From an uncultured Muribaculaceae bacterium (lineage in GTDB: Bacteria; Bacteroidota; Bacteroidia; Bacteroidales; Muribaculaceae): a stretch of DNA of 34,794 bases. Positions 13,408 to 28,426 of the stretch are shown here, one piece after another. The DNA is taken from the NCBI GenBank assembly GCA_944321905.1, contig CALUNI010000011.1, forward strand, positions 1-34,794, written 5' to 3'. Both the position numbers and the translations under genes were made by a program. Each line of letters starts with the position of its first letter. Within the stretch, counting starts at the first letter, position 1. The notes beneath the pieces are model-generated. The model searched no databases and was not told the DNA's origin. It saw nothing but the letters and a program-made list of their open reading frames with translations.

Positions 13408-14913
13408 ATGAAGAAATCAACGATTTGGCTTTTGACCATAATAATGTCTTGTACATTTATGGGGCTGCTCTACGTGCAAATTATGTATATGGAAAACATG
13501 ATTAAGATGCGCAACGAACAGTTCTCGGAAGTCGTAAAACGTAGTCTTTATGGCGTATCCAACACGTTGGAGCAGGATGAGACGAAGAGGTATCTCGAAG
13601 AAGACCTCGACCGCTTGTCGAATTTCTATACCGATTTCAGCAGCAACAGATCCAAGAGCTTCGAGTATTCGCTTAAGTCGCCCGACGGGTCGTCGGACTA
13701 TAAGATAAAAGGGACGTTGAATGCGATAAACCAGGAAGGCGGCGACAACATCAAGGACCTAAGCGACAGCTACAGCAACATGCAGCGTGTGCTCAAAGGG
13801 CAATATCTTTACCAACAAGGAATATTGAACGAGGTGATATTGAACATGCTCGCCCAATCGTCGAACCGGCCAATAGAGGAACGTGCCGACTCGGCTGTGG
13901 TGCGCAAGTACCTTGGCGTGGAGCTTGAAAACAACGGGCTTGACTTGCCGTTTGATTTCGCATTGGTCAACCGCAACGGGACGGTAGTTTACCAGTCGGC
14001 CGATTTCAACCCCGAGCGTAACGGCAACGTGTATTCGCAAGTGGTGTTCCCCAACGACCCGGTAAACAAGATGAACTACTTGAAGGTAACTTTCCCGACT
14101 AAGAGTGATTACATATTCTCGTCGATTAAGTTCATGATACCGTCGTTTGTGTTTTCGTTCATACTGCTTGCGGTGTTCCTATATACCATTATATTGGCGT
14201 TCAGACAGAAGAAGCTGACCGAGATGAAGAATGACTTCATCAACAACATGACTCATGAGTTCAAGACTCCGATATCGACCATATCGCTTGCCGCCCAGAT
14301 GCTCAACGACGACAGCGTGAGGAAAAGCAGCATGATGATGCAGCACATATCCACGGTGATAAATGACGAGACCAAGCGGCTTCGCTTCCAAGTAGAAAAG
14401 GTGCTGCAGATGTCGATGTTTGACAGGCAGAAGGCCACGCTTAAGTTGCAGGAAATCGATGCCAACGCGGCGATAGCCAACATCGTGAACACATATAAGA
14501 TAAAAGTGGAAAAATATGGCGGGAAGATAACTTCGAGCCTTGAGGCCGAGGATTCGATAATAAACGTTGACGAGATGCACTTCACCAACGTCATATTCAA
14601 CTTGCTCGACAACGCGCTGAAGTACCGCCGCGAGGATGTGCCGCTTGAACTGGGCGTATCGACGCGCGACACGGGCGACCGGCTTGAGATTGTGATATCC
14701 GACAACGGGATAGGAATAAAAAAAGAAGACCAGAAAAAGATATTCGAGAAATTCTACCGCGTATCGACAGGCAACCGCCACGACGTGAAAGGCTTCGGCC
14801 TGGGACTTGCCTATGTGCACAAGATGATTGTGGAGCTGAAGGGCGACATACGGGTGGAAAGCGAGCCTAACGTAGGGTCTAAGTTCATAATAACGTTACC
14901 ATTGTTAAAATAA
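13408..14913 (+). CDS. rprX: Two-component sensor histidine kinase RprX
   Basis: Inner-membrane histidine kinase of 501 residues. TM1 spans about 6-26, a periplasmic sensor domain about 27-240, and TM2 about 241-265. The HisKA motif MTHEFKTPIS at 281-290 places the phospho-accepting His at 283. The ATPase domain follows, with NLLDNALKYR near 400 (N box), DNGIGIKKED (G1) and GFGLGLAYVHK (G2). It matches the RprX type known from Bacteroides fragilis, where overexpression affects tetracycline resistance, and its partner rprY follows after 13 nt. It should autophosphorylate and pass phosphate to RprY; the signal is not known. It has its own promoter and a good ribosome-binding site. The pair is conserved across Bacteroidales, so it need not be dedicated to the polysaccharide locus downstream. 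Confidence 0.9.
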   Translation: MKKSTIWLLTIIMSCTFMGLLYVQIMYMENMIKMRNEQFSEVVKRSLYGVSNTLEQDETKRYLEEDLDRLSNFYTDFSSNRSKSFEYSLKSPDGSSDYKIKGTLNAINQEGGDNIKDLSDSYSNMQRVLKGQYLYQQGILNEVILNMLAQSSNRPIEERADSAVVRKYLGVELENNGLDLPFDFALVNRNGTVVYQSADFNPERNGNVYSQVVFPNDPVNKMNYLKVTFPTKSDYIFSSIKFMIPSFVFSFILLAVFLYTIILAFRQKKLTEMKNDFINNMTHEFKTPISTISLAAQMLNDDSVRKSSMMMQHISTVINDETKRLRFQVEKVLQMSMFDRQKATLKLQEIDANAAIANIVNTYKIKVEKYGGKITSSLEAEDSIINVDEMHFTNVIFNLLDNALKYRREDVPLELGVSTRDTGDRLEIVISDNGIGIKKEDQKKIFEKFYRVSTGNRHDVKGFGLGLAYVHKMIVELKGDIRVESEPNVGSKFIITLPLLK

Positions 14914-15835: not shown

Positions 15836-16552
15836 ATGAAGTATCTGTTAAGAATTTACCAATGGGTGATCGTATGTCCTATATTGTTGACATTGACCAT
15901 ATTGACGGCTGTGCTGACAGTGCTGTTGAGCCTGCTCGGCATGGGAAAATGGGCCGGTTACTATCCTCCCAAGCTTTGGGCAAAGTTTTGGTGCTGGCTC
16001 ATGTTTGTCAGGGTCGAGGTGCGCAATCGCCGGTTTATAGATAAAAAGACCTCTTATGTGTTTGTCGCCAACCATCAAGGGGCATACGACATATTTTCGA
16101 TATATGCCTATCTTAACCACAACTTCAGGTGGATGATGAAGAAAAGCCTTGAGAAAGTACCCTTTGTGGGTATAGCCTGCAAGAGCAGCGGTCACATAAT
16201 GGTTGACCGTTCGTCGCCGTCGGCCATAAAGGCAACCATGGACGAGGCAAAAGAGAAATTGCGCGACGGGATGTCGCTCGTGGTGTTCCCCGAAGGGGCG
16301 CGTTCGTGGGATGGCAAGATGCGTCCGTTCAAGCGTGGCGCGTTTAAGTTGGCTCTTGATTTCAACCTTCCCGTGGTGCCGATAACCATCGACGGCTCGT
16401 TCAAGGTATTGCCACGCACAACTTATAATATCACTCCCGGCAAGATAGTATTGACCATACACGAGCCGATAATGCCGTCGGCCGAGGGGCATGACCTCGA
16501 CAAGGTGCTTGCCGAAAGTTTTGAGCAGATACAGTCGTCGCTGCCGGCATGA
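15836..16552 (+). CDS. plsC: 1-acyl-sn-glycerol-3-phosphate acyltransferase (PlsC family)
   Basis: Membrane-associated acyltransferase of 238 residues that would convert lysophosphatidic acid to phosphatidic acid in phospholipid synthesis. A hydrophobic N-terminal helix spans about 8-35. Motif I is NHQGAYD at 79-85 (the HX4D catalytic pair, His80 and Asp85). Motif III is FPEGARS at 151-157. VPITIDGS near 180 is the fourth block. The start at 15836 is preferred because the promoter lies just upstream and the ATG at 15782 would be at the transcription start. The gene stands alone between the rprXY terminator and the polysaccharide locus. Bacteroidales often have several PlsC-like genes, so acylation of another lipid, such as an ornithine lipid, is possible. 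Confidence 0.87.
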   Translation: MKYLLRIYQWVIVCPILLTLTILTAVLTVLLSLLGMGKWAGYYPPKLWAKFWCWLMFVRVEVRNRRFIDKKTSYVFVANHQGAYDIFSIYAYLNHNFRWMMKKSLEKVPFVGIACKSSGHIMVDRSSPSAIKATMDEAKEKLRDGMSLVVFPEGARSWDGKMRPFKRGAFKLALDFNLPVVPITIDGSFKVLPRTTYNITPGKIVLTIHEPIMPSAEGHDLDKVLAESFEQIQSSLPA

Positions 16553-16555
16553 GAG

Positions 16556-16570
16556 CCCGCAGCCGGCGGG
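16556..16570 (+). terminator. Weak stem-loop after the plsC-like gene
   Basis: CCCGC (16556-16560) and GCGGG (16566-16570) form a short GC-rich hairpin directly after the stop codon, followed by TCTTGAAATAATTTG. The stem is short and the T tract poor, so termination is only possible. Confidence 0.3.
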
Positions 16571-16595
16571 TCTTGAAATAATTTGTAGCAACCTA

Positions 16596-16625
16596 TTGCG
16601 GTTTGCCGTATTTTACTTACCTTTG
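16596..16625 (+). promoter_or_regulatory. Bacteroidota-type promoter of the polysaccharide locus
   Basis: TTG at 16596-16598, a spacer of exactly 19 nt, and TACCTTTG at 16618-16625 (exact TAnnTTTG). It is one of the two best promoters in the window and points at the UpxY-like gene. Transcription should start near 16632. Confidence 0.75.
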
Positions 16626-16795
16626 CGCATCGAAACACGTCTCTCGTGCTATAGGTGAGGCGTAGCATCAATTAAGGACTCGCACCATCACGGTGCTAAT
16701 ATAAACCATTGAAACATAAAGTGTTGTTTGTGTTTCGATGACCCCAAAGAATGTCGTTCCGTGACATTTCTTTCACAGCTTTGGACAAAAATAGT
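16626..16795 (+). promoter_or_regulatory. Hairpin-rich 5' leader of the polysaccharide locus
   Basis: About 165 nt are transcribed before the first gene. Visible stems: GCACC/GGTGC at 16682-16696; CATTGAAACA (16707-16716) with TGTTTCGATG (16731-16740), 10 bp with one wobble; and AAAGAATGTC (16746-16755) with GACATTTCTTT (16763-16773), 10 bp with one bulge and T-rich on its 3' arm. In Bacteroides capsule loci, UpxY proteins act on the leader of their own operon to prevent early termination (established for the family). A structured leader ahead of a UpxY homologue fits that mode. Confidence 0.55.
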
Positions 16796-17341
16796 ATGAA
16801 TTTGCGGCATATGCCGCAAATGTGGTATGTTTTAAGGGTTACTTATCAGCGGGAGCTTGCGGCCAAGCGGCTCCTTGATGATAGTGGCATATCTAATTTC
16901 GTGCCGACGAAGCTTGTGCGTCGGCGTGGATGTCACGGCCGTTTCACGTGGGAGCGTGAGGTGGCCGTTCATAACTATGTGTTTGCCTATGCCACCCGCG
17001 AAGAAATTCAACGTCTGAAGCAGACAAAAATCCCCTATTTGCGGTATGTGATGACCTCGCGCGACGGGCGCAGCAGTTACCTGACCGTCCCCGACGAGCA
17101 AATGCGCAATTTCATAGCCGTCGCAGGCAACGAGCAGGAGCGCGTCACATTTCTCGACCCGGCCGCCGTGCCGGTTGCCGAGGGCGACCGTGTGCGCATA
17201 ACCGGAGGCCCGTTTGAGGGCGTTGAAGGCGTGTGCGTGCGTATGCACAACGGGCGCGACCGCCGCGTGGTGGTGCAGATAGAAGGTATCGTTGCCGTCG
17301 CCACCACCGCCATCCCCGCAACCCTCATCCAAAAGCTCTGA
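16796..17341 (+). CDS. UpxY-family transcription antiterminator (NusG paralogue)
   Basis: Specialised NusG-like protein of 181 residues, which should bind RNA polymerase and keep it transcribing the long polysaccharide operon. The NGN domain covers about 9-110 and begins MWYVLRVTYQRELAAKRLL; a conserved basic patch KLVRRRG follows. A KOW-like domain (about 125-180) contains GDRVRITGGPFEGVEGV. The ATG at 16796 is chosen because its upstream bases (aaatagt) match those of ugd, manC and a GT4 gene in the same locus; 16811 or 16820 are alternatives and 16751 would lie within the leader hairpin. It is the first gene of the locus, as upxY genes are in Bacteroides; no UpxZ inhibitor gene follows. 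A 22-bp palindrome spans its first codons. Confidence 0.85.
   Translation: MNLRHMPQMWYVLRVTYQRELAAKRLLDDSGISNFVPTKLVRRRGCHGRFTWEREVAVHNYVFAYATREEIQRLKQTKIPYLRYVMTSRDGRSSYLTVPDEQMRNFIAVAGNEQERVTFLDPAAVPVAEGDRVRITGGPFEGVEGVCVRMHNGRDRRVVVQIEGIVAVATTAIPATLIQKL
16800..16821. promoter_or_regulatory. 22-bp perfect palindrome at the start of the UpxY-like gene
   Basis: The core TTTGCGGCATATGCCGCAAA (16801-16820) is a perfect inverted repeat and pairs one base further on each side. It overlaps all three candidate start codons (16796, 16811, 16820). It could be a dimeric repressor operator, or an RNA hairpin that hides the start codon. Confidence 0.6.
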
Positions 17342-17463
17342 TTGAATCCCCATTTTGTTTTCTGCAAGTTCATTTCTTGTCTTATGATGTGTAGCCGCTG
17401 CTCGCTGCGACTTGAGCATGACGGTGTGAGTGCTGTCGTCCATAACACAAATATAGTATTGCA

Positions 17464-18018
17464 ATGAAAGAGATAATAACCTATATAAGAAGCGATTACC
17501 ATAGATATTTCGGGGGGGGGGTAAATATCCCTCTTTATAAGATAATCTTTGAAGCATTGACCGCCCGGAACCACAGGTTTGCCTATTCGTTCTGGCTTAG
17601 GTTGTGCATGAAAAAGAATCCGTTTTACGTCATAGCCCGTCTTAAGCATTACCGGCTTTCGCGCCTTTATGGCATGCAAATACCTCGGACGGTAAAAATA
17701 GGATACGGGCTGTATATCGGTCATGGCGTAGGCATCATAATCAATCCGGGTACCGTTATTGGAAATAATTGTAATATCAGCCAGTTTCTTAACATTGGCA
17801 GCCAAAAACATTCGCCTGCCACGATAGGCGATAACGTGTGGATTGGCCCGCATGTGTGCATCGTGGAAGACGTGAAAATAGGCGACAATGCCACGATAGG
17901 GGCCGGCGCCGTGGTGACGCACGACATCCCGGCAGGCGTGACGGCTGCGGGAGTTCCTGCAAAGGTAATATCCAACCGTTCGCATCCCGAATATGTCAAT
18001 AACAGGTGGCCTGTGTAA
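17464..18018 (+). CDS. CysE/WcaB-like hexapeptide O-acetyltransferase, poly-G tract in frame (ON)
   Basis: Cytosolic left-handed beta-helix acetyltransferase of 184 residues. The N-terminal 75 residues are helical and begin KEIITYIRSDYHRYF, as in serine acetyltransferase-like proteins of polysaccharide loci. Hexapeptide repeats run from about 78 to 165 (GYGLYIGHGVGI, TVIGNNCNIS, ATIGDNVWIGPHV, VKIGDNATIGAGAVV) and end with GVPAKVI. It more likely acetylates a sugar of the glycan than serine, given its position between the antiterminator and ugd; that is inference. Codons 17-19 are a run of ten G (17512-17521). Loss of one G gives a stop right after Gly19; gain of one gives a stop after residue 25. 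The gene therefore looks phase-variable and is ON here. Confidence 0.85.
   Translation: MKEIITYIRSDYHRYFGGGVNIPLYKIIFEALTARNHRFAYSFWLRLCMKKNPFYVIARLKHYRLSRLYGMQIPRTVKIGYGLYIGHGVGIIINPGTVIGNNCNISQFLNIGSQKHSPATIGDNVWIGPHVCIVEDVKIGDNATIGAGAVVTHDIPAGVTAAGVPAKVISNRSHPEYVNNRWPV
17512..17521 (+). repeat. Homopolymer G10 tract inside the hexapeptide acetyltransferase gene
   Basis: Ten consecutive G encode Gly17-Gly19 and the first base of Val20. It is the longest G run in the window. Both single-base length changes produce an early stop, as expected of a contingency locus. Confidence 0.9.
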
Positions 18019-18061
18019 GTGTTACTAAGAAAAGTATGAACAATAATAAAGAAAAATTAGT

Positions 18062-19375
18062 ATGAATATAGCAATAGTAGGAACCGGGTATGTGGGTTTG
18101 GTCTCGGGGACTTGTTTCGCCGAGATGGGCGTTAACGTGACTTGTGTGGATATCGACGAGGCCAAGATTGGCCGCTTGCAAAGCGGGCAAATCCCCATCT
18201 ACGAGCCGGGTCTCGACGACATGGTGCGGCGTAACGTCGAAGCAAAACGCTTGCACTTCAGCACCGACTTGGCTTCGGTAATAGACGACGTGGAAGTGGT
18301 GTTTTCGGCAGTAGGCACTCCGCCCGATGAGGACGGAAGCGCCGACTTGCAATATGTGCTGAATGTCGCACGGACTTTTGGCCAAAATATCAAGAAATAC
18401 ACATTGTTGGTAACAAAATCCACAGTTCCTGTCGGCACGGCGAGGAAGGTAAAAGCTGCCATAGAGGAAGAACTGGCCAAGCGAGGGGTTGACGTGCCAT
18501 TCGACGTGGCATCAAATCCCGAGTTTTTGAAAGAAGGCGCGGCGATAAAGGATTTCATGTCACCCGACCGCGTGGTGGTGGGTGTGGAATCGGACAGGGC
18601 GCGCGAGTTGATGACCCGCCTCTACCGGCCTCTGATGCTAAATAATTTCCGCGTGATTTTTACCGACATACCAAGTGCCGAGATGATAAAGTATGCGGCA
18701 AATTCGATGCTTGCCACACGCATCAGTTTTATGAACGACATAGCCAACTTGTGCGAGTTGGTAGGAGCCGACGTGAACATGGTGCGCAAAGGTATTGGCA
18801 GCGATTCGCGCATAGGCAGCAAGTTCCTTTACCCCGGTTGCGGCTATGGCGGCTCGTGTTTCCCTAAAGATGTAAAAGCTCTCATTAAGACAGCTGAAAA
18901 GAACGGTTATTCGATGCAGGTATTAAAAGCCGTAGAAGCGGTCAACGAAGAGCAGAAAAGTGTGTTGTTCAAGAAACTGGAACGTCATTATGGCGGCGAC
19001 CTTGCAGGCAAGCGCGTTGCCCTGTGGGGACTGGCATTCAAGCCCGAGACCGACGACATGCGCGAATCGACGGCACTGGTAGTGATAGACTTGTTGCTCA
19101 AGGCCGGATGCACGGTGCGTGTGTACGACCCGGTGGCGATGGACGAATGCCGCCGACGCATAGGCGACAGTGTGGAATATGCCACCGACATGTATGACGC
19201 TGTGCTTGATGCCGACGCGCTGTTGCTCGTCACCGAGTGGAAGCAGTTCCGCCTGCCCGGTTGGGGAGTGGTGAAGAAGTCGATGAACACGCCGCTCATA
19301 ATCGACGGGCGTAACATATATGACAGGAGGGAATTGCTTGAAAACGGATTTGAGTATTATTGCATAGGCTTGTAA
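18062..19375 (+). CDS. ugd: UDP-glucose 6-dehydrogenase
   Basis: Cytosolic NAD-dependent enzyme oxidising UDP-glucose twice to UDP-glucuronate, the precursor of uronic acids in the glycan. Its 437 residues are typical. The NAD site is GTGYVGLVSG at 7-16; NPEFLKEG at 152-159 and GYGGSCFPKD at 261-270 form the active site, with catalytic Cys266 and the neighbouring Lys. WGLAFKPETDDMRES near 325-340 is the C-terminal UDP-binding block. The next gene encodes a UDP-glucuronate 4-epimerase, so the pair probably supplies UDP-GlcA and UDP-GalA. A UDP-ManNAc dehydrogenase is the other possibility in this superfamily, but the motifs fit Ugd better. Confidence 0.93.
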   Translation: MNIAIVGTGYVGLVSGTCFAEMGVNVTCVDIDEAKIGRLQSGQIPIYEPGLDDMVRRNVEAKRLHFSTDLASVIDDVEVVFSAVGTPPDEDGSADLQYVLNVARTFGQNIKKYTLLVTKSTVPVGTARKVKAAIEEELAKRGVDVPFDVASNPEFLKEGAAIKDFMSPDRVVVGVESDRARELMTRLYRPLMLNNFRVIFTDIPSAEMIKYAANSMLATRISFMNDIANLCELVGADVNMVRKGIGSDSRIGSKFLYPGCGYGGSCFPKDVKALIKTAEKNGYSMQVLKAVEAVNEEQKSVLFKKLERHYGGDLAGKRVALWGLAFKPETDDMRESTALVVIDLLLKAGCTVRVYDPVAMDECRRRIGDSVEYATDMYDAVLDADALLLVTEWKQFRLPGWGVVKKSMNTPLIIDGRNIYDRRELLENGFEYYCIGL

Positions 19376-19393
19376 ATCTTAAAACGAGGGATA

Positions 19394-20491
19394 ATGAAAA
19401 TATTGGTTACCGGCGCAGCCGGATTCATAGGTAGCAAACTTGCCAACCAATTGGCAAAGCGTGGCGACGAGGTAATAGGCATCGACAACATCAATACTTA
19501 TTACGACCCGAATCTTAAGATTGCGCGCTTGAAAGAATTTTATGGAATAGAGCCGTCGCAATATGCGCCTGTCGGCGAATGCGTTCCCGAGACGGGCGGT
19601 GACGGCAGCTCGGTGGTGCGTTTCCCCGAGATGCAGTGGGGAGTGAAGATGCAAAGCCCTTTGTTGCCGTCGCTCAGTTTCATACGCATGGACATAACCG
19701 ACCGCGACACGCTCGAACGCCTGTTTGAGGTAGAGAAATTCGACAAGGTGATGAACCTTGCAGCCCAAGCCGGAGTGCGGTATTCACTGAAAGACCCTTA
19801 CACCTACGTGCAAAACAATGTGATGGGATTCATGGACTTGCTCGAATGCTGCCGGAAAAACGGTGTGCGCCATCTGGTGTATGCGTCTTCAAGTTCGGTA
19901 TATGGATTGAATACCAAGGTGCCTTATAGTGAAGACGACGAAGTGAAGAGCCCGGTGAGCATATATGCCGCAACAAAAAAGAGCAACGAACTTATGGCTC
20001 ATTCCTATGGTAAGCTCTACGGGTTGCATACCACAGGGTTGCGCTTTTTCACGGTTTATGGACCGTGGGGCAGGCCCGACATGGCTCCGATGCTGTTTGC
20101 CGACGCCATAAGCCACGGCAAGCCTATAAACGTGTTCAACAATGGCGACTTGATCCGCGATTTCACATATATCGACGATATCGTTGACGGAACGATACGT
20201 GCAATCGACACAGTGCCAGATGCGGACGACTGTCCCAACGGCGTGCCTGCCAAGGTGTATAACATAGGTTGCAGCCACCCGGTGAGGCTGATGGACTTTA
20301 TAGGGGAAATGGAGCGATGCCTTGGCCGCGAAGCTGTAAAGAACTTCTTGCCTATGCAGCAAGGCGATGTCTATCAGACCAATGCCGACACCTCGCACCT
20401 TGAAGCCGAAGTGGGATACCACCCCCACGTCCGGCTGCATGAAGGTCTCCGACAGTTTGTTGATTGGTATAAAGGATATTATAAACCGTGA
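19394..20491 (+). CDS. UDP-glucuronate 4-epimerase-like NAD-dependent epimerase
   Basis: Cytosolic extended short-chain dehydrogenase of 365 residues, expected to interconvert UDP-GlcA and UDP-GalA. The Rossmann motif GAAGFIGS lies at 7-14, the catalytic YAATK at 191-195 and the partner SSSSVYG at 166-171. RFFTVYGPWGRPDMA, split from the preceding TTGLR, is typical of the CapI/LspL group of uronate epimerases. The segment at about 52-92 is longer than in most relatives and low in recognisable motifs. It starts 18 nt after ugd, and the pairing with ugd supports the uronate substrate over UDP-glucose/galactose. Confidence 0.88.
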   Translation: MKILVTGAAGFIGSKLANQLAKRGDEVIGIDNINTYYDPNLKIARLKEFYGIEPSQYAPVGECVPETGGDGSSVVRFPEMQWGVKMQSPLLPSLSFIRMDITDRDTLERLFEVEKFDKVMNLAAQAGVRYSLKDPYTYVQNNVMGFMDLLECCRKNGVRHLVYASSSSVYGLNTKVPYSEDDEVKSPVSIYAATKKSNELMAHSYGKLYGLHTTGLRFFTVYGPWGRPDMAPMLFADAISHGKPINVFNNGDLIRDFTYIDDIVDGTIRAIDTVPDADDCPNGVPAKVYNIGCSHPVRLMDFIGEMERCLGREAVKNFLPMQQGDVYQTNADTSHLEAEVGYHPHVRLHEGLRQFVDWYKGYYKP

Positions 20492-20521
20492 TTGTGCGAA
20501 GTGGCAAAAAAGGGCTTTTAA

Positions 20522-21572
20522 ATGGAGAAACTCAGACGGCTGGATGACGTTGTAGTCATTCGTTTGTTGCTCATGTTGCTCGTTGTGCTATATCATGCCT
20601 TTTGTCCTGCGGCGGGCATATGGAAGCCAATAGATGGTATGGGTGATAGTCCGGTCGCCTATTGGTGGATAGCGAAGTTCTCGAGTAGTTTTGTGATGGA
20701 GACTTTTGTATTTATATCCGGATATCTCTTTGGTTATCAGATGTCAAAGAAGTCGGCTATGCAATTTTCCATGAGTGCCGTAGTAAAAAGGAAGGCAAAG
20801 CGGCTTATAATCCCAAGTATAATATTTAGTGTGTTGTATTTAATTACTATCAATAATGCGTTTGACTCGACTATAGAGGTTGCATATGGCATTTTGAACG
20901 GGATAGGCCACATGTGGTTTCTGCCGATGCTGTTCTGGTGTTTTGTGTTTACATCCATTGCCATAAAATTCAACGCCAAGCCCGAATGGGTATTCGCTTT
21001 GTTGATTGTGTTATCGTTGTTTTCTTTCGTTCTGTTGCCATTTAGAATCTCGTCGGCATTCTATTATATGCTGTTTTTCTATGTTGGCTATTGGTTGAAA
21101 AGATATGAGATTGACATTGTTAAGATGATGAATATAAGATGTCTGTCCGTAATAGGTGCGTTGTACTTATTTGTATTTGTTGGATTTACACTCTTTAACA
21201 AATGGGGGGGGGTACAACGAACACTTTGCTAACAATCTTGTAGGGAAATCAATGCTATTGCTGTCAAGTAATTTTTTCAAAATAGTGTATGCATCCTTGG
21301 GCTTGTTTTTTGTGTATCTGAGTGTGAATATAATGCTTAAAAAAGATATTCTGCACATTGGTGACAAAACCGTGAAATTAAGTTCTTATTGCTTTGGTGT
21401 ATATTTGTTTCAGCAATTTATATTGCAATCGCTGTATTATAAGACAGGTTTGCCCGGATGTTTCACTTCATATGCATTGCCGTGGGTGGGATTCATAGTG
21501 GCATTAATAGCATCTGTGGCATTGTCGATATTGGCCTTAAGAACAAGAATAGGTAGATTTTTAATCGGATAA
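20522..21572 (+). CDS. Membrane O-acyltransferase (acyltransferase 3 family), phase-OFF through a poly-G frameshift
   Basis: Polytopic inner-membrane acyltransferase of the type that O-acetylates surface polysaccharides. The N-terminal helix has the family signature LVVLYHAFCP (His25, with Arg14 before it), and about ten hydrophobic segments follow. As written, the first frame ends at 21232 after 236 residues, nine of them out of frame (NKWGGVQRTLC). The rest of the protein continues in another frame to 21572. The break is exactly at a G9 run (21204-21212). Removing one G joins the halves into one 349-residue ORF reading NKWGGYNEHFANN across the tract; G10 gives another early stop. I read this as a switch in the OFF position rather than a decayed gene, because both halves are otherwise intact. 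It ends 5 nt before wzx. Confidence 0.85.
21204..21212 (+). repeat. Homopolymer G9 tract causing the frameshift in the membrane acyltransferase gene
   Basis: Nine consecutive G at about codon 228. Of lengths 8, 9 and 10, only 8 gives the full-length frame (so 11 would as well). It is the second-longest G run in the window and lies in the other acyl-decoration gene. Confidence 0.9.
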
Positions 21573-21577
21573 ATCGA

Positions 21578-22834
21578 ATGGCTTTATATAAACGTGTAAA
21601 AAGTATTTTGAAAAACAGCAAGGATGGTAAAGTTTTAATTTCCAACTTTACTTATCTTACATTGCTTCAAATTGCCGGTTACGTTTTTCCGTTGTTGACT
21701 ATGCCTTATTTGGCTAGAGTAATAGGACCGAGTGGTTTTGGTAAAATAGCATTTGCTTCGGCAATAATAATATGGGTGCAAACAGTTGCAGACTGGGGGT
21801 TTAACTTCTCGGCAACAAGGGACGTGGCCAAGAACCGTGATGATTTGGGAAAAGTTTCAGAAATATTTTCTAATGTATTTTGGAGTAGGTGTGTATTAAT
21901 GATGTTGTCGTTGATAGTATTGATCATATTAATCATTTCGATTCCGTCATTTAGAGAAGATGCTGATGTCATATTGGTTACATTTCTGTTGATACCGGGT
22001 CATATAATGTTTCCTGACTGGTTTTTCCAGGCAGTGGAAAGAATGAAGTATATAACGTATTTAAACATTTTGTCGAAATTAATATTTACTATTGCGGTTT
22101 TTGTCTTTATCGTAGAGGACGACGACTACATATTGCAGCCATTGTTTAATTCGTTGGGGTTTTGCATATGCGGTATCATTGCAATGTATATAATATTGAG
22201 GAAATGGCATGTAAAACTCTTGAAACCGAATTTAACGAAAATATGTATAACAATAAAGGGCAGCACCGACGTTTTTATTAATGAGATAGCTCCTAATCTG
22301 TATAACAGCCTTTCAGTTGTAATGCTAAGCATGTTTTCCGGTTCTATTTCCACGGGTATTTATGATGCCGGGAAAAAGATAAATACTATTGTGTACCAAC
22401 TTTTACTGATTGTCGCAAGGGTATTTTTCCCATTTTTAAATAGGAAACCCGACAAGCATGCCATATATGCGAGAATAAGCTTGCTTATCGCAATTTGTTT
22501 TGCAGTTTCTATTTTTCTTCTTGCTCCGTATTTAATTCGCTTTTTATTTAATAGCGATTTTGAAGACTCGATAATTGTTTTGAGAATAACGTCGATATCA
22601 TTAATTTTCACATCGTTAAGTTCTATATACGGGACAAATTATTTGTTAGTTCATCGCAAAGACAGGCTGTTGCGGAATATCACTTTAATTGCGTCAGCTT
22701 CAAGTTTGCTATATTCTGTTCCATTAATATATTTTTACGGATATATCGGTACTGCTATAACATATACCGTAGCGACAGCTACGATTGGCGGTGCCAAGTA
22801 TTTTTTTGCCCGTAAGGTCAGATTGGCAAAGTGA
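21578..22834 (+). CDS. Wzx-type oligosaccharide flippase
   Basis: Inner-membrane flippase of 418 residues of the polysaccharide-biosynthesis (MOP) superfamily, expected to move the undecaprenyl-linked repeat unit to the periplasmic face. About 12 hydrophobic segments are visible. The N-terminal block FPLLTMPYLARVIGPSGFGK is characteristic, as are the charged loop WGFNFSATRDVAKN near 70-84 and FPDWFFQAVERMKY near 145. Codon use is visibly more A/T-rich than in ugd or gmd, as in the next two genes. It lies directly after the acyltransferase gene and upstream of the polymerase, giving a complete Wzx/Wzy pair. Confidence 0.9.
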   Translation: MALYKRVKSILKNSKDGKVLISNFTYLTLLQIAGYVFPLLTMPYLARVIGPSGFGKIAFASAIIIWVQTVADWGFNFSATRDVAKNRDDLGKVSEIFSNVFWSRCVLMMLSLIVLIILIISIPSFREDADVILVTFLLIPGHIMFPDWFFQAVERMKYITYLNILSKLIFTIAVFVFIVEDDDYILQPLFNSLGFCICGIIAMYIILRKWHVKLLKPNLTKICITIKGSTDVFINEIAPNLYNSLSVVMLSMFSGSISTGIYDAGKKINTIVYQLLLIVARVFFPFLNRKPDKHAIYARISLLIAICFAVSIFLLAPYLIRFLFNSDFEDSIIVLRITSISLIFTSLSSIYGTNYLLVHRKDRLLRNITLIASASSLLYSVPLIYFYGYIGTAITYTVATATIGGAKYFFARKVRLAK

Positions 22835-22934: not shown

Positions 22935-23840
22935 ATGTTTAAGAAAGTATATACAAAAATTAGAAGTCCTCGCAATTTTTTGTTTGGATTATTGCGCAGA
23001 TTCGGATTTTTATTCAGCGATTCTGTATATATAAAATTGCAGTATAGGTTAGAGAATAGGACCAAGCTATGCCTCCGAGAGCCTAAGATTTTTACAGAAA
23101 AGATTCAATGGCTTAAGTTGCATGATCGGAAGCCAGAGTATCCAATGATGGTAGATAAATATGCGGTGAAAGAATATGTAGCCTCGTTGATTGGTGAGGA
23201 ATATATTATTCCTACGCTTGGAGTGTGGAACCGATTTGAAGACATAGATTTCTCCATTTTGCCCGACAAGTTTGTTCTTAAAGCCACTCATAGCAGCCAT
23301 GCATCGATAATTTGTAAAGACAAGCGGGCGTTTAATTGCGCGGATGCCAAAATAAAATTTAAAAAGTTTTTTAAAGACAATCCTTACAAAGGATACAGGG
23401 AATGGGCGTATAAGAATGTAAAGCCCCGCATCATTGCCGAGCAATTTATGGAAAACAAAGGTGACAGGGAACTTACCGACTACAAGTTTTTTTGCTTCAA
23501 CGGCGAGCCCCGTTACTGCCAAGTGATACGTGACCGATCGGGCAGCGAAACTATCGATTTTTATGATGTCAATTGGGTGCATCAGGAATTTGTCGGTTTG
23601 AACCCGGTTGCGCGGCTCGGCCGGAATCCGGTCGCGCGGCCTAAAGAATATGACAAGATGCTTGAAATTGCCGCAAAATTGTCGCAAGGCATTCCATTTG
23701 TAAGGATAGACTTGTATGATATAAACGACAACGTATATTTCGGAGAAATAACATTTTATCCCGGAGCCGGACTTGGTGCCTTTACCCCCGCGGAATGGAA
23801 CCGTAAACTTGGCGATATGATACAGCTGCCAAACGTGTAA
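22935..23840 (+). CDS. TupA-like ATP-grasp protein of polysaccharide biosynthesis
   Basis: Cytosolic protein of 301 residues in the TupA-like ATP-grasp group, common in Bacteroidota glycan loci and often annotated as a glycosyltransferase. In Bacillus, TuaA/TupA-type genes add amino acids or modify teichuronopeptide (family knowledge). Visible blocks are FTEKIQWLKLHDRKPEY at 54-70, DKYAVKEYV, PDKFVLKATHSS at 111-122 (ATP site), ELTDYKFFCFNGEP at 183-196 and VRIDLYDINDNVYFGEITF at 257-275, where Asp and Glu should bind magnesium. It may attach an amino acid to a uronic acid of the repeat unit; that is inference. Residues 222-235 hold an in-frame imperfect repeat (NPVARLGRNPVAR). A purine-rich site, AAAAGGGGAAG, precedes the start. 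Confidence 0.83.
   Translation: MFKKVYTKIRSPRNFLFGLLRRFGFLFSDSVYIKLQYRLENRTKLCLREPKIFTEKIQWLKLHDRKPEYPMMVDKYAVKEYVASLIGEEYIIPTLGVWNRFEDIDFSILPDKFVLKATHSSHASIICKDKRAFNCADAKIKFKKFFKDNPYKGYREWAYKNVKPRIIAEQFMENKGDRELTDYKFFCFNGEPRYCQVIRDRSGSETIDFYDVNWVHQEFVGLNPVARLGRNPVARPKEYDKMLEIAAKLSQGIPFVRIDLYDINDNVYFGEITFYPGAGLGAFTPAEWNRKLGDMIQLPNV
23601..23643 (+). repeat. 24-nt imperfect in-frame tandem repeat in the TupA-like gene
   Basis: GAACCCGGTTGCGCGGCTC at 23601-23619 recurs 24 nt later as GAATCCGGTCGCGCGGCCT, with four differences. It encodes NPVAR twice, with LGR between. The segment is strikingly GC-rich within an A/T-rich gene. Confidence 0.6.
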
Positions 23841-23850
23841 AGCCTTAAAA

Positions 23851-25056
23851 ATGAGAAGTAAGAAATTATTTTTGTTGGCGTTTTTGCTATTCGTTGTATA
23901 TTTCATGCAAGGGGTAGCGTATTCTGTTGGTAGCTTCATATCACAGAGTTGCCTGTTATTGTTTCTGTGCATAGGAATGTATGCTTATTTTAAGTCGCTT
24001 GCAACAGTATCGGTCAATCCGGCCTTTGTAAACGTGTGGATGATATTTTTCCTAATGCATTGTTTCTGTTTTATCTTATCTCCAAAAGTTGTTTACGGAA
24101 CGCTTTATGAGTCGATTGGCAAGGTAGAGACGCTTGACCAGTTTAAGAACATAGCAATGTTTTCTTTGTCTTTCTTTATTGCCTATGCCACTGCACGATA
24201 TAATTATTTCAGCCAAAAACAAATTCTGGCGATGGGATTGATTCTATTGGTCCTGTCGATAGCCAGATATTTTTATCAAATGGTCGAGAGACAAGAATTG
24301 CTTGAGAAAGAAGCCGTAACCAATAATATGGGATACTTGATATTATCGGTATTGCCATGTATGATGTTAGTAATCAAGCGTTATAAGGCGATATCTATAA
24401 TATCTGTTTTGGCTATCATATGTTTTGTAATAATGTCTTCTAAAAGAGGGTCTATCGTGTGCTTGATTGCAATGCTGCTGTTTTCTTTATACTATTACAT
24501 AAAGATAAACAAATTGAAATTTAAGACGGCGGTAGGTCTGTTTGTCATAGCCGTGGCTATGGGTTATGTTGTGTATTACCAATATGCTTCAAACGATTAT
24601 CTCCAAGAAAGGCTTGAAAAGACATCAGAAGGCAAGCAATCGGGTCGATTGGTAGCCTATAGTACGTTATTTGAGCATTGGGCGAGGGAGGACAATCTTG
24701 CAAAATCGTTGTTTGGCAACGGTATGTCTCAAAGTGTCGGCGTATGGGGTAATTATGCGCACAACGACTGGCTTGAATTGCTGATAGACAACGGGCTGCT
24801 TGGTGTTGTACTGTATGCCTCTCTTTTTATTTGCATGAATAAGTACATACGTAAGTCTGCAATGTCGCCGACTCAAAAATTGGCAGCACATTTATGTGTT
24901 ATTTTTTGGTTTTTGAAAACAATATTCTCAATGGGCTACATGTTCAATTCGGGTGCAATATTTTTATTCCTTTTTGGAATACTTGTCGGTAATTATGAGC
25001 GAGACAAGTTGGCGTACCGAAAAACACGCGTGCCTGTAAAATATGTGAATGCGTAA
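23851..25056 (+). CDS. Wzy-type O-antigen/capsule polymerase (O-antigen ligase family)
   Basis: Inner-membrane polymerase of 401 residues with about 11 predicted membrane segments. The large extracytoplasmic loop (about 250-315) carries SGRLVAYSTLFEHW and the O-antigen ligase-family signature YAHNDWLELLIDNGLLGVVL, where His is expected to be essential. It would polymerise flipped repeat units on undecaprenyl diphosphate at the periplasmic face. It begins 10 nt after the TupA-like gene and precedes the glycosyltransferases. A true ligase (WaaL) has the same fold, but location in a locus with Wzx favours Wzy. Confidence 0.87.
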   Translation: MRSKKLFLLAFLLFVVYFMQGVAYSVGSFISQSCLLLFLCIGMYAYFKSLATVSVNPAFVNVWMIFFLMHCFCFILSPKVVYGTLYESIGKVETLDQFKNIAMFSLSFFIAYATARYNYFSQKQILAMGLILLVLSIARYFYQMVERQELLEKEAVTNNMGYLILSVLPCMMLVIKRYKAISIISVLAIICFVIMSSKRGSIVCLIAMLLFSLYYYIKINKLKFKTAVGLFVIAVAMGYVVYYQYASNDYLQERLEKTSEGKQSGRLVAYSTLFEHWAREDNLAKSLFGNGMSQSVGVWGNYAHNDWLELLIDNGLLGVVLYASLFICMNKYIRKSAMSPTQKLAAHLCVIFWFLKTIFSMGYMFNSGAIFLFLFGILVGNYERDKLAYRKTRVPVKYVNA

Positions 25057-25086: not shown

Positions 25087-26172
25087 ATGAAAAAGGTATT
25101 GTGCTTGATCGACAGCCTTGGCTCGGGTGGTGCGCAAAGGCAGCTTGTGGGGCTTGCGGGTCTGCTTCAGCAAAAGGGGTATGACGTGACGTTGGCTTGC
25201 TATTACGAGCGTGTGTTTTATAGGGAACACATAGAGCGCAACCATATCAATCTGGTCAAGCTGACTCCGAAGAACAACAAATTGTCGAAGTATATAGAAG
25301 TATTCAGCCTCATCAGGCGGGAGAGATATGATGCCGTGATTGCCTATTTGTCGGGGCCGGAGGTAATCGTAAGCATGGCAAGGCTGTTTTTGAGGCACAA
25401 GTTTGTGGCGATTGTCTCGGAGCGCAATGTGGTGAACCGCATGACGTTGGTTGACAAGATGCGGTATTGCATATATTCGCTTGCCGATTACGTGGTGTCG
25501 AATTCGCATACGCAAAATTCGATACTGCATAGGCGGTTTCAGTTCTTAAGGAAAAAGGCGTTGACAATCAATAATTTTGTCGATACGCAATATTTTACGC
25601 CTGCCGACGTGGCAAGTGACGGCGACAGCGTGTTGAAAATATTGGTATTGGCCCGGATTAACATGCAAAAAAACGTGTTGGGGCTGATAGAAGCGGCAAG
25701 AAAATTAAAAGACCGGGGCATAAAATTCCGTATAGACTGGTATGGTGATTACAAAGACGCAGATTATCACGACCGATGTGTGGAAAAGATTAGGGCAATG
25801 GACGTGGGCGACCTGTTTTGCCTGCACAGCGCCACGACCGACGTGCTGTCGAAATACAGGGAATGTGACGTGTTTTGCCTGCCGTCGTTTTTTGAAGGTT
25901 GCCCCAACGTCGTGGCCGAGGCCATGAGTTGTGGCAAGCCGGTCTTGTGCAGCAACGTGTGTGACAATCCTTTGATAGTGGAAGATGGCGGCAATGGATT
26001 CCTTTTCGCCCCTGATGATATTGATGGCATGGCATCGTCGATAGTACGATTTTCTGAATTGCCGGTCGGGGATAGGGTGCGCTTTGGGAAGAGAAGCAGG
26101 GAGCTGGCCGTCGAAAAATTCAGCTCCGACGCGTTTGTCGATAAGTATATTAAATTGATAGAATCGAAATAG
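25087..26172 (+). CDS. Glycosyltransferase family 4 protein (first of three)
   Basis: Cytosolic GT-B retaining glycosyltransferase of 361 residues. The N-terminal nucleotide-free half begins KKVLCLIDSLGSGGAQRQL, with the glycine-rich loop typical of GT4. The C-terminal half starts near 190 (LKILVLARINMQKNVLGLI) and carries the E-x7-E signature EGCPNVVAE near 278-286. SERNVVNR near 116 fits the donor/acceptor loop. It should add one sugar of the repeat unit to the lipid carrier; donor and linkage are unknown. Its stop codon is separated from the next GT4 start by one base, so translation is probably coupled. Confidence 0.9.
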   Translation: MKKVLCLIDSLGSGGAQRQLVGLAGLLQQKGYDVTLACYYERVFYREHIERNHINLVKLTPKNNKLSKYIEVFSLIRRERYDAVIAYLSGPEVIVSMARLFLRHKFVAIVSERNVVNRMTLVDKMRYCIYSLADYVVSNSHTQNSILHRRFQFLRKKALTINNFVDTQYFTPADVASDGDSVLKILVLARINMQKNVLGLIEAARKLKDRGIKFRIDWYGDYKDADYHDRCVEKIRAMDVGDLFCLHSATTDVLSKYRECDVFCLPSFFEGCPNVVAEAMSCGKPVLCSNVCDNPLIVEDGGNGFLFAPDDIDGMASSIVRFSELPVGDRVRFGKRSRELAVEKFSSDAFVDKYIKLIESK

Positions 26173-26173
26173 T

Positions 26174-27283
26174 ATGAAGATATTGCACATATGTGACCAT
26201 TTAAAAGTGGGCGGTGCCGAGAAGATAATTGTCGAGATGTCGTTGAGGCAGCGGCAATCGGGGCATGACGTAGGAGTGCTGCTTTTGAAATCGACCGATT
26301 CGGTCTGGGAACGGCAACTTATGGATAGCGGGGTTACGGTCGAATGGCTTATAAAAAAAGGCAGCATATACAATCCCGTCCTTTCCTTTAAGATAGCAAG
26401 ATATCTTAAAAAGGCCGATCTGGTTCATGTGCATCTTTTCCCCGCACAGTACTGGGTGGCAATGGCTCGGTGGATGACCGGAACCAAGGTTCCCATAATA
26501 ACCACCGAACACAGCACATCTAATCGCAGGAGACGAAACAAGTGTCTCAAAGTAATAGACCGATTTGTGTATAAGCAGTTTGCATGTGCGGTGGCGTGTG
26601 CCGACGAAGTTTATGCCAGCGTAAAGGATGATTATGCGTCTGCGACACATTGGGAGGTTATCCCCAACGGCGTGGATGTTGACAGGTACCATAGTGCGCA
26701 GCCTTATGGCAAGGACGAACTTTTGGGCGTGAGCCGGGACGCGTTTTGCATTGCGATGGTATCGCGGTTTATTTATCCTAAAGATCAGCATATATTGATA
26801 GAGGCTGTTGCCGAGTGTCCCGAGGCGGTTCACGCCGTGCTGGTGGGAGACGGCCCCCAACGTGAGTCATGCGAGCAGTTGGCAGCCCGTCTGGGCGTGT
26901 CAGACAGGGTGCATTTCTTGGGAAACAGGAACGACGTTGACCGTATCTTGCGCACTTGCGATGCGGCAGCGTTAATCAGCGAATATGAGGGCTTGTCGTT
27001 GGCATCAATCGAAGGCATGGCTGCCGGCGCTTTTATCGGAAGCGACGTTAAGGGCATATCGAGTATCGTGGGCGGGGCAGGGATTCTTGTAAAAAACGAC
27101 TCTCGCCTCGTTTCCGAAGCCATTGTTTCCTTGATGCATGATGATTATAGAGAAATTATATCGCGGCAGTGTCTTGAACGCGCAAAGTGTTATGACATTA
27201 ACCGCATGGTAGATAAATACATGCATTTATACCAAGCAGTGTTAAACGACGGGGCAAACTACGTCAGACCACAAACCGTCTAA
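26174..27283 (+). CDS. Glycosyltransferase family 4 protein (second of three)
   Basis: GT-B glycosyltransferase of 369 residues. The N-terminus KILHICDHLKVGGAEKIIVE shows the usual G-G-A-E loop. The acceptor side has TTEHSTSNRRRR near 111-122. The C-terminal domain contains IPNGVDVDRYH, VGDGPQRESCEQLA and the E-x7-E motif EGLSLASIE near 275-283. It begins one base after the preceding GT4 and is in the same transcript. The product sugar is not predictable. The upstream bases AAATAGT match the start context used by other genes in the locus. Confidence 0.9.
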   Translation: MKILHICDHLKVGGAEKIIVEMSLRQRQSGHDVGVLLLKSTDSVWERQLMDSGVTVEWLIKKGSIYNPVLSFKIARYLKKADLVHVHLFPAQYWVAMARWMTGTKVPIITTEHSTSNRRRRNKCLKVIDRFVYKQFACAVACADEVYASVKDDYASATHWEVIPNGVDVDRYHSAQPYGKDELLGVSRDAFCIAMVSRFIYPKDQHILIEAVAECPEAVHAVLVGDGPQRESCEQLAARLGVSDRVHFLGNRNDVDRILRTCDAAALISEYEGLSLASIEGMAAGAFIGSDVKGISSIVGGAGILVKNDSRLVSEAIVSLMHDDYREIISRQCLERAKCYDINRMVDKYMHLYQAVLNDGANYVRPQTV

Positions 27284-27304: not shown

Positions 27305-28426
27305 ATGAGGCCTCGATTATTTATTGTGGTCAACGAAGACAGGTTCTTCTTGTCGCACAGAAAAGAAATTGCAATCAACGCAATCAAAGGTGGGTATGAC
27401 GTTACGCTCGTGGCAAAAAACACAGGGCGTATGAATGAAGTCAAGGCTCTGGGAATAAATGCAATCGAGCTAAAGATAAATCCTACCGGCGAAAATCTCC
27501 TTGAGGAGTTCAAGACGTTTTGTTTCTTGCTGAAATTGTATAGGCGGGAGAAACCGTTGATTGTTCACCATGTGGGGCTTAAGAATGTGCTGTATGGCGG
27601 ACTTGCGGCCAAACTGGCCAAGATACACGGGGTTGTCGATGCCATAAGCGGCTTGGGCATAATGTTTTCGGGCGAAAAGCCATCTTTGTTGGCAAAGGCC
27701 GTATTAAGTGTAATTCGTTTCTCGTGCAATAGAAAGAACGTGGCGGTTATCTTTCAGAACAAGGAAGACGAGAAAATTTTCAAGGACAGACACATAATTG
27801 ACAGGTGCAAAGTATATTTCACTCACGGTTCGGGCGTGAATTTGAAAAATTACGCATATGTCGATGAGCCGGAAAATGATGTATTGAAAGTGATATTTAC
27901 CGCCCGCATGGTCGAAGATAAAGGAGTGAAAGTCTTGATCGAGGCTGCTGAAAGGTTGAAAGACCTATATCGAGGGAAAGTGAAATTTATCTTGTGCGGC
28001 GGCTTGTCGAAAAATCCCAAAGCCATCAAAGAGGAGTATTTGCGAGAGCATTGCGACGGTGATTATATCTGTTGGCTTGGGTATCGGTCGGATGTCAAGG
28101 AATTGCTTGAACAGTCAAATATAATGTGCTTCCCGAGCTATTACCGCGAAGGCTTGCCTAAGTCGTTGATAGAAGCGGCAGCGATAGGCCTGCCGATAGT
28201 TACCACCGATTCCATTGGCTGCAAGGATACTGTCGTCGATGGATATAACGGCTTCTTGGTTCCTGTAAAAGACAGCGTGTCGCTTGCCGAGAAATTGAGT
28301 ATTTTGTTTGACAATCCCGATTTAAGGAAAAGGATGAGGGTGAATTCAAGAAAATTGGCCGAGAAATATTTTTCCATAGAGCCGGTCATTAAAGAGCATA
28401 TGGAGATTTACAGGTCGTTTACATAG
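27305..28426 (+). CDS. Glycosyltransferase family 4 protein, PglA/WbaZ-like (third of three)
   Basis: GT-B glycosyltransferase of 373 residues. The N-terminus (LFIVVNEDRFFLSHRKEIA), the loop VVDAISGLGIMFSG near 112-125, and IFQNKEDEKIF resemble the PglA-type alpha-1,3-N-acetylgalactosaminyltransferases, which often add the second sugar to undecaprenyl-diphosphate-linked HexNAc. The C-terminal domain has ARMVEDKGVKVLIEAA, split by eye from its neighbours, and the E-x7-E motif EGLPKSLIE near 281-289. It is the last gene before a terminator, in the position where initiating-module genes usually lie, but no initiating phosphoglycosyltransferase follows. Family is certain; the PglA-like specificity is tentative. 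Confidence 0.88.
   Translation: MRPRLFIVVNEDRFFLSHRKEIAINAIKGGYDVTLVAKNTGRMNEVKALGINAIELKINPTGENLLEEFKTFCFLLKLYRREKPLIVHHVGLKNVLYGGLAAKLAKIHGVVDAISGLGIMFSGEKPSLLAKAVLSVIRFSCNRKNVAVIFQNKEDEKIFKDRHIIDRCKVYFTHGSGVNLKNYAYVDEPENDVLKVIFTARMVEDKGVKVLIEAAERLKDLYRGKVKFILCGGLSKNPKAIKEEYLREHCDGDYICWLGYRSDVKELLEQSNIMCFPSYYREGLPKSLIEAAAIGLPIVTTDSIGCKDTVVDGYNGFLVPVKDSVSLAEKLSILFDNPDLRKRMRVNSRKLAEKYFSIEPVIKEHMEIYRSFT

Follow-up and report, generated by a model that had tools for sequence, protein, structure and literature searches.

Phase-variable enzymes that acylate surface glycans have been described in several bacteria, and the locus reported here, from a genome of the family Muribaculaceae (2.54 Mb in 162 contigs, 92.9% complete), can be compared with them. 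The DNA under study is contig C11 of this genome, a stretch of 34,794 bases that we refer to as the window. It carries two long G tracts, one in the gene of a soluble hexapeptide acetyltransferase and one in the gene of a membrane-bound AT3 acyltransferase, and we consider it probable that slipped-strand phase variation at both tracts switches two enzymes for acyl decoration encoded in a single locus. The poly-G/C contingency loci of Campylobacter and Neisseria resemble this situation in that their tracts are both intragenic and intergenic, but they belong to other phyla, and we know of no twin acyltransferase locus in these genera. NeuO, the polysialate O-acetyltransferase of Escherichia coli K1, is likewise of the soluble left-handed beta-helix type. 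It makes the O-acetylation of a capsule phase-variable, but it is a single enzyme and is encoded by a prophage gene. The repeats of that gene are heteropolymeric (PMC3090145). The oafA gene of Haemophilus influenzae is, as far as the available text of two papers goes, a switchable AT3 gene whose product O-acetylates the lipooligosaccharide of this organism (PMC9558356, PMC11868660). It differs from the window in that it contains tetranucleotide repeats, as stated in a reference title, instead of poly-G, and in that it concerns one enzyme acting on lipooligosaccharide in the Pasteurellaceae. The first of these papers also lists OafB-type acetylation in Salmonella as phase-variable (PMC9558356).

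In the Bacteroidales, surface polysaccharides are known to vary by means of the invertible capsule promoters of Bacteroides, which act by DNA inversion at the promoters of whole loci, whereas here single enzymes would be controlled by tract length. The sequence-only reading of the window knew of no described Bacteroidales system of this form. In the literature that we covered (mostly without subscription papers, and without preprints), we came across no report of Muribaculaceae that phase-vary by poly-G tracts. A related slippage idea has been published for Bacteroides fragilis. In the PSI/9 locus of that species two acetyltransferase-related genes vary between strains, and slippage was proposed (Patrick et al. 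2010, PMC3090145); the differences consist of one stop mutation and one C added to a stretch of four Cs, and the part of that paper available to us presents no long tract and no demonstrated switch. The word 'bacteroid' does not occur in the AT3 review (PMC9558356), and neither 'bacteroid' nor 'acetyltransferase' occurs in a survey of prokaryotic homopolymeric tracts (PMC2831843). The mechanism and the enzyme class have precedents in other bacteria. What appears to be new is the taxon, the occurrence of two such genes together in one locus, the enrichment at AT3 genes and the promoter class described below.

Two G tracts and the frames they set

A homopolymer scan of all 34,794 bases revealed just two G runs of at least seven, and no C run of that length, confirming what had been claimed from the sequence alone. 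The first, G10 at positions 17512..17521, follows codon 16 of the hexapeptide gene (17464..18018, 184 amino acids, PF00132 at 2e-14), which is in frame as assembled. The second, G9 at positions 21204..21212, lies in a poorly conserved loop of the AT3 gene and is out of frame as assembled. Both tracts, and all genes of the locus mentioned below, are on the plus strand. Tract 2 splits the AT3 gene: the frame of the N-terminal two thirds (20522..21232, 236 amino acids, PF01757 at 1.3e-22, profile 6-233) runs into a stop five codons past the tract, and the C-terminal part (21156..21572, PF01757 at 2.8e-7, profile 239-325) is in another frame. Taken alone, this C-terminal piece, at 30.4 bits, falls just short of the cut-off of 31; the two pieces span consecutive ranges of the profile. 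The Pfam families Hexapep and Acyl_transf_3 also bear out the earlier assignment of both genes as acyltransferases, one soluble and one membrane-bound. The soluble enzyme scored below the equivalog cut-offs of EpsC (98.4 versus 150 bits) and CysE (82.9 versus 210.65 bits), and likewise of WcaB, and is therefore labelled only as a hexapeptide acetyltransferase.

At either tract, both wrong frames reach a stop within nine codons. A contingency locus can be recognised by a coding homopolymer of about eight or more units and by truncation of the product upon a one-unit change, and both G10 and G9 show these features. If replication added or dropped one G, the frame would shift and translation would end within a few codons, cutting the soluble enzyme near residue 17 and depriving the membrane enzyme of its last third. 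Slippage would be reversible, and each acyltransferase gene would flip between a full-length and a truncated form independently of the other. The polymer of the UpxY/wzx/wzy locus in which both genes reside would be the common substrate for the predicted acyl-transfer chemistry, and a clonal population would then contain cells with a constant backbone that differ in acyl decoration. The assembled sequence would represent a cell with the hexapeptide gene switched on and the AT3 gene switched off. The earlier proposal of a four-state system is arithmetic only, as a single state per gene was seen. An internal promoter at tract 2 was considered as well and rejected, since inspection by eye found no TAnnTTTG motif at the right distance.

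Tracts at AT3 genes and in relatives of the two enzymes

All runs of at least nine were listed in eight genomes, comprising the source genome, five others of the same genus and two of another genus. This resulted in 119 runs, in agreement with the 9-mer counts. PF01757 gave 64 matches in these genomes, corresponding to 62 AT3 genes after merging of pieces. Thirteen of the runs are inside an AT3 span or no more than 150 bp away from one, compared to 0.43 expected (binomial 1e-15, with rounded genome sizes and on the assumption that tracts are independent, which those of three tandem genes in genome G015 are not). Twelve of these tracts are within 100 bp, nine within 50 bp and one inside the profile span, and most sit in the short stretch that precedes the domain. 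In some cases the 150-bp rule assigns a tract to the gene upstream of the one that the tract precedes, which leaves the total of 13 pairs unchanged. A Pfam scan of the genes with tracts, covering 73 of 110 open reading frame pieces from 99 of the 119 tracts (37 short, overlapping or antisense pieces were removed manually), ranked Acyl_transf_3 first among the families; its ten pieces include the two halves from the window itself. In the control set (120 of 314 genes), Acyl_transf_3 was outside the first 25 families ordered by number of members, and so has at most one member there.

Of the three classes tested, AT3, glycosyltransferase family 2 and hexapeptide, AT3 was the strongest. Glycosyltransferase family 2 was rejected as an equally enriched class: it has 216 matches in the eight genomes, with at least two tracts within 100 bp among the matches listed (by eye) and three tract-side pieces in the Pfam tally, which is much less than the 13 tracts at 62 genes seen for AT3. 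Hexapeptide genes with a tract numbered two among the matches listed (the window and G005 C2, by eye) and two in the Pfam tally. In these eight genomes, the expectation that such tracts are enriched at acyltransferase genes therefore holds for AT3, and for the hexapeptide class only weakly. The locus in G005 C2 (L282), with a hexapeptide tract at 13447 and an AT3-side tract at 16155, was examined as a possible second twin locus and rejected as a functional twin; its AT3 gene has further breaks.

With start codons read by eye, three of the 13 AT3 tracts are in frame (the one in G042 C25 and those in two tandem genes of G015), nine are out of frame (G042 C15, the third tandem gene of G015, G003, two in G004, G005, two in G006, and the window), and one, at G015 C11:628677, alters only the AT3 tail. 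The G015 genes belong to an array of five tandem AT3 genes (L290, G015 C11:209949-215481), three of which carry C9, C9 and C10 near the start codon and are in, in and out of frame, respectively. Damaged AT3 domains were found in 6 of the 13 genes with a tract versus 3 of the 49 without (Fisher 0.0017, a hand count that includes contig ends).

Relatives of the N-terminal half of the AT3 protein of the window are rare, with hits at 1e-20 in 4 of 297 family genomes including the source, and three of the four matches in the three other genomes contain a tract. In G109 C6 (G8) and G067 (G9) it is located in the same AT3 loop as in the window, and is in frame. In G109 C8 a G10 is present elsewhere in the AT3 gene and is out of frame, and the relative in G219 has no tract.

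The soluble enzyme has relatives at 1e-20 in 40 of the 297 family genomes, the source genome counted; eight other genomes of the same genus gave no relative at this threshold, their matches being partial or weaker. We inspected the tract-1 site at 29 loci of the family and at 12 of 80 loci from public genomes. Genome G052, from another genus and with 81% protein identity, has G9 at the tract-1 codon, in frame, and G147 (63% identity) has G8 at this codon, out of frame. An uncultured Bacteroidales locus (L303, 61% identity) has G11 three codons beyond the site, in frame, and Porphyromonas levii shows an interrupted run at the site. The bases that flank the tract differ among the window, G052, G147 and L303, and the loci around the relatives have nothing in common beyond the gene itself and weak glycosyltransferase and dehydrogenase matches. 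Since the tract is retained while the surrounding loci differ, tract 1 travels with its gene. In G052, a further hexapeptide-like gene just upstream bears its own G9, also in frame.

Long G runs across the genome and the family

The source genome contains 12 runs of at least nine, those of the window included. This corresponds to about 0.16 such runs expected per window of 34,794 bases, and the Poisson chance of two or more is near 0.012. In 400 kb of control sequence from three relatives, G or C runs of five, six, seven and eight numbered 304, 57, 4 and 2, respectively, and there was none of at least nine, although the stretches were picked by hand with the tract list known, so that the zero is not an independent estimate. 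Chance origin of the tracts was rejected on the basis of the run-length spectrum together with the AT3 enrichment.

The other tracts of the source genome occur in different kinds of sequence. Its longest run, a G13 (L035:4001-4013), is in frame within a family 2 glycosyltransferase gene, a sugar-phosphate transferase gene bears an in-frame G9, and several tracts are at intergenic sites. The notion that backbone genes are free of tracts thus applies to the window and fails elsewhere in the genome. Runs of at least nine are present in 96 of 99 family genomes, and the raw median density of G9 words was 3.7 per Mb in these 99 genomes versus 1.2 per Mb in 145 genomes from other families of the order. 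In a set of 105 tracts, 6 of which come from loci fetched by homology, 87 were scored as outside genes, which is an overestimate, as the gene caller misses atypical glycan genes, including the wzx gene of the window. That the tracts are private to acyltransferases was rejected in view of the 12 runs of the source genome and of the 106 of 119 runs located away from AT3 genes. The sequence-only reading had named long runs that are common and non-variable in unrelated genes of the genome as evidence that would count against it, and that evidence is in part what we found, next to the enrichment at AT3. Because the 12 runs of this genome include some in non-acyltransferase genes or between genes, and because the family has tracts in front of promoter boxes, both tracts of the window belong to a family-wide poly-G repertoire and do not form a private decoration system.

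Restriction-modification systems count among the known phase-variable genes, according to the accessible text of one paper (PMC11868660). In the source genome, a G8 (L037:3728-3735) directly follows the ATG of a DNA methylase-like gene, in frame and behind an apparent transposase gene (by eye), making this a candidate phase-variable methylase. Among relatives, one tract is in an EcoRI-type adenine methylase gene (L154) and another in a gene for a type I specificity subunit (L209).

The ends of contigs C70 (L045) and C128 (L049) of the source genome overlap by about 50 bases and differ only in an intergenic tract, which is G8 in one and G9 in the other. We read this mismatch as length heterogeneity that broke the assembly, and it may also be an effect of assembly. 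Around this tract, a stretch of 21 bases is the same as positions 21194-21214 of the window, in the AT3 gene. The end of contig C84 (L048:1-120) holds a dispersed repeat for which the genome gives 66 matches; many of these overlap one another on the two strands. We considered that the tracts might be ends of mobile elements with the shared flank AAT-G9-TAAAT, and rejected this, conservation being weak beyond a few bases.

Some of the intergenic tracts stand ahead of a promoter motif. The consensus promoter box of B. fragilis is TAnnTTTG, as given in the available part of PMC3090145. In 95 of 97 tracts with enough flank, a set that excludes both tracts of the window, this motif begins 17-20 bases after the tract in 17 cases versus 0.67 expected from the intergenic background. 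TAA comes next after the run in 16 of these 17, and TTAAC occurs within 12 bases before it in 11. TAA followed 38 of 78 G9 runs, 10 of 27 longer runs, 3 of 17 G8, none of 18 G7, 2 of 137 G6 and 52 of 3793 G4 runs, counts that come from a pool largely selected for long runs. Promoter-type tracts, with the flank TTAAC...G9-TAAAT, are found among loci L031-L049 and L152-L231 (for example L173, L170 and L188), and the genes behind them often encode secreted or SusC-like proteins (by eye). The arrangement suggests promoters under tract-length control, comparable to nadA of Neisseria, which the accessible literature describes as having a promoter controlled by repeat length. In a smaller group (L175, L179 and others) the tract is followed by TAnnTTTG at a distance of 25-29 bases, roughly one turn of the helix beyond the main group.

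Alternative explanations and the wider meaning

Several observations weigh against a switching role of the two tracts. No length difference within a species was seen at tract 1 or tract 2, and the C70/C128 pair is intergenic and may be an assembly artefact. A run of at least seven stands at the tract-1 site in just 2 of the 29 family loci, both among the three closest, and the 12 public loci yielded a tract at or near the site only in L303; the close relatives G058 (63% identity), G187 (58%), L304 and L305 lack one there. No tract is present at 49 of the 62 AT3 genes, and long G runs are frequent in the family, many of them intergenic and most, as given above, away from AT3 genes. Finally, the out-of-frame AT3 genes of G004 C3, G005 C2 and G006 C5:27283 have extra frame breaks, so some of the off copies may be decaying.

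These data could mean that the tracts do not switch at all. Tract 1 would then encode a glycine loop that stays stable, and the AT3 gene would be a pseudogene that suffered a single break, at its G run. The additional breaks in several out-of-frame AT3 genes, the lack of an observed length difference within a species and the missing tract in most relatives of the soluble enzyme fit this explanation. However, the window, G052 and L303 have tract 1 in frame and G147 has it out of frame, in-frame tracts recur in the same AT3 loop, and the enrichment at AT3 genes is unlike the product of random decay. We therefore regard a non-switching origin as unlikely.

A second explanation involves the organisation of the locus. 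A TAccTTTG sequence at 16618..16625, matching the Bacteroidales -7 promoter box, is located 125 bases upstream of the start of upxY (16751..17341), the product of which matches the UpxY-family transcription antiterminators with 151.7 bits against a cut-off of 100 (NF033644). The hexapeptide gene is followed by genes for a ugd-like protein of the UDP-glucose/GDP-mannose dehydrogenase family (18062..19375) and an NAD-dependent epimerase/dehydratase (19394..20491), both Pfam profile matches, and then by the AT3 gene. Downstream of the latter are a Wzx-type flippase gene (21578..22834, PF01943 at 3.3e-49), a gene for a TupA-like ATP-grasp protein (22935..23840, PF14305), a Wzy-type polymerase/ligase gene (23851..25056, PF04932 at 5.1e-12), a family 1 glycosyltransferase gene (25087-26172, Pfam profile match) and two more glycosyltransferase genes judged by eye (26174-27283 and 27305-28426). 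With UpxY above its cut-off at the head and both Wzx and Wzy present, the locus shows these two features of a UpxY-headed capsule locus. UpxZ is the usual partner of UpxY. None adjoins upxY here, as the flanking gaps (16553-16750 and 17342-17463) are too short and the neighbours are an acyltransferase-like gene on one side and the hexapeptide gene on the other; no UpxZ profile was run on the remaining window. We found no inverted-repeat pair of at least 10 that encloses the TAccTTTG box in positions 16300-17000. A perfect 11-nucleotide inverted repeat lies between the box and upxY (arms 16628-16638 and 16730-16740), and leaves the box outside its arms.

The gene that follows upxY directly is the one with tract 1, and all genes point in the same direction with short gaps between them. 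An out-of-frame tract could thus leave a long untranslated stretch that lowers downstream expression, and the switch would set the whole polymer and not its decoration. Antiterminators of the UpxY family should counter premature termination, and the presence of UpxY at the head of the locus for that reason counts against such polarity, as does the position of tract 2 in the fourth gene after upxY. Polarity is accordingly a quite improbable account of the two tracts.

Homopolymers of nine to ten bases can permit slippage of RNA polymerase or the ribosome; at the two tracts a mixture of products would then arise from one DNA length, giving a dosage device and not a genetic switch. The close stops in both wrong frames and the variation in length among relatives speak against it, neither being decisive, and we judge it very unlikely. 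That assembly or sequencing errors have led to tract lengths, and hence frame states, that differ from those printed is scarcely credible: the genome is a draft of 162 contigs, but independent genomes have tracts of similar length at these sites or close to them, and even if miscounted, each gene keeps a long tract.

Phase variation of both acyltransferase genes by slippage thus remains our preferred explanation. We give an even chance to a broader proposal, in which the Muribaculaceae use poly-G switching throughout the genome, with a coding arm that is strongest at AT3 and includes glycosyltransferases and DNA methylases, a promoter arm, and a four-state decoration at the present locus, so that slippage in the Bacteroidales would exist beside inversion. 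Surface variation in gut Bacteroidales has been studied chiefly as DNA inversion, and a layer of slippage acting on glycan decoration, if real, would be missed by programs that search for inversions and can become blurred in draft assemblies. The enrichment at AT3 genes provides a simple marker to find such loci, and switching is directly testable by sizing the tracts in cultured Muribaculaceae. If the proposal is correct, these abundant gut commensals would vary their phage receptors, antibody targets and glycan recognition while the backbone of the polymer stays unchanged.

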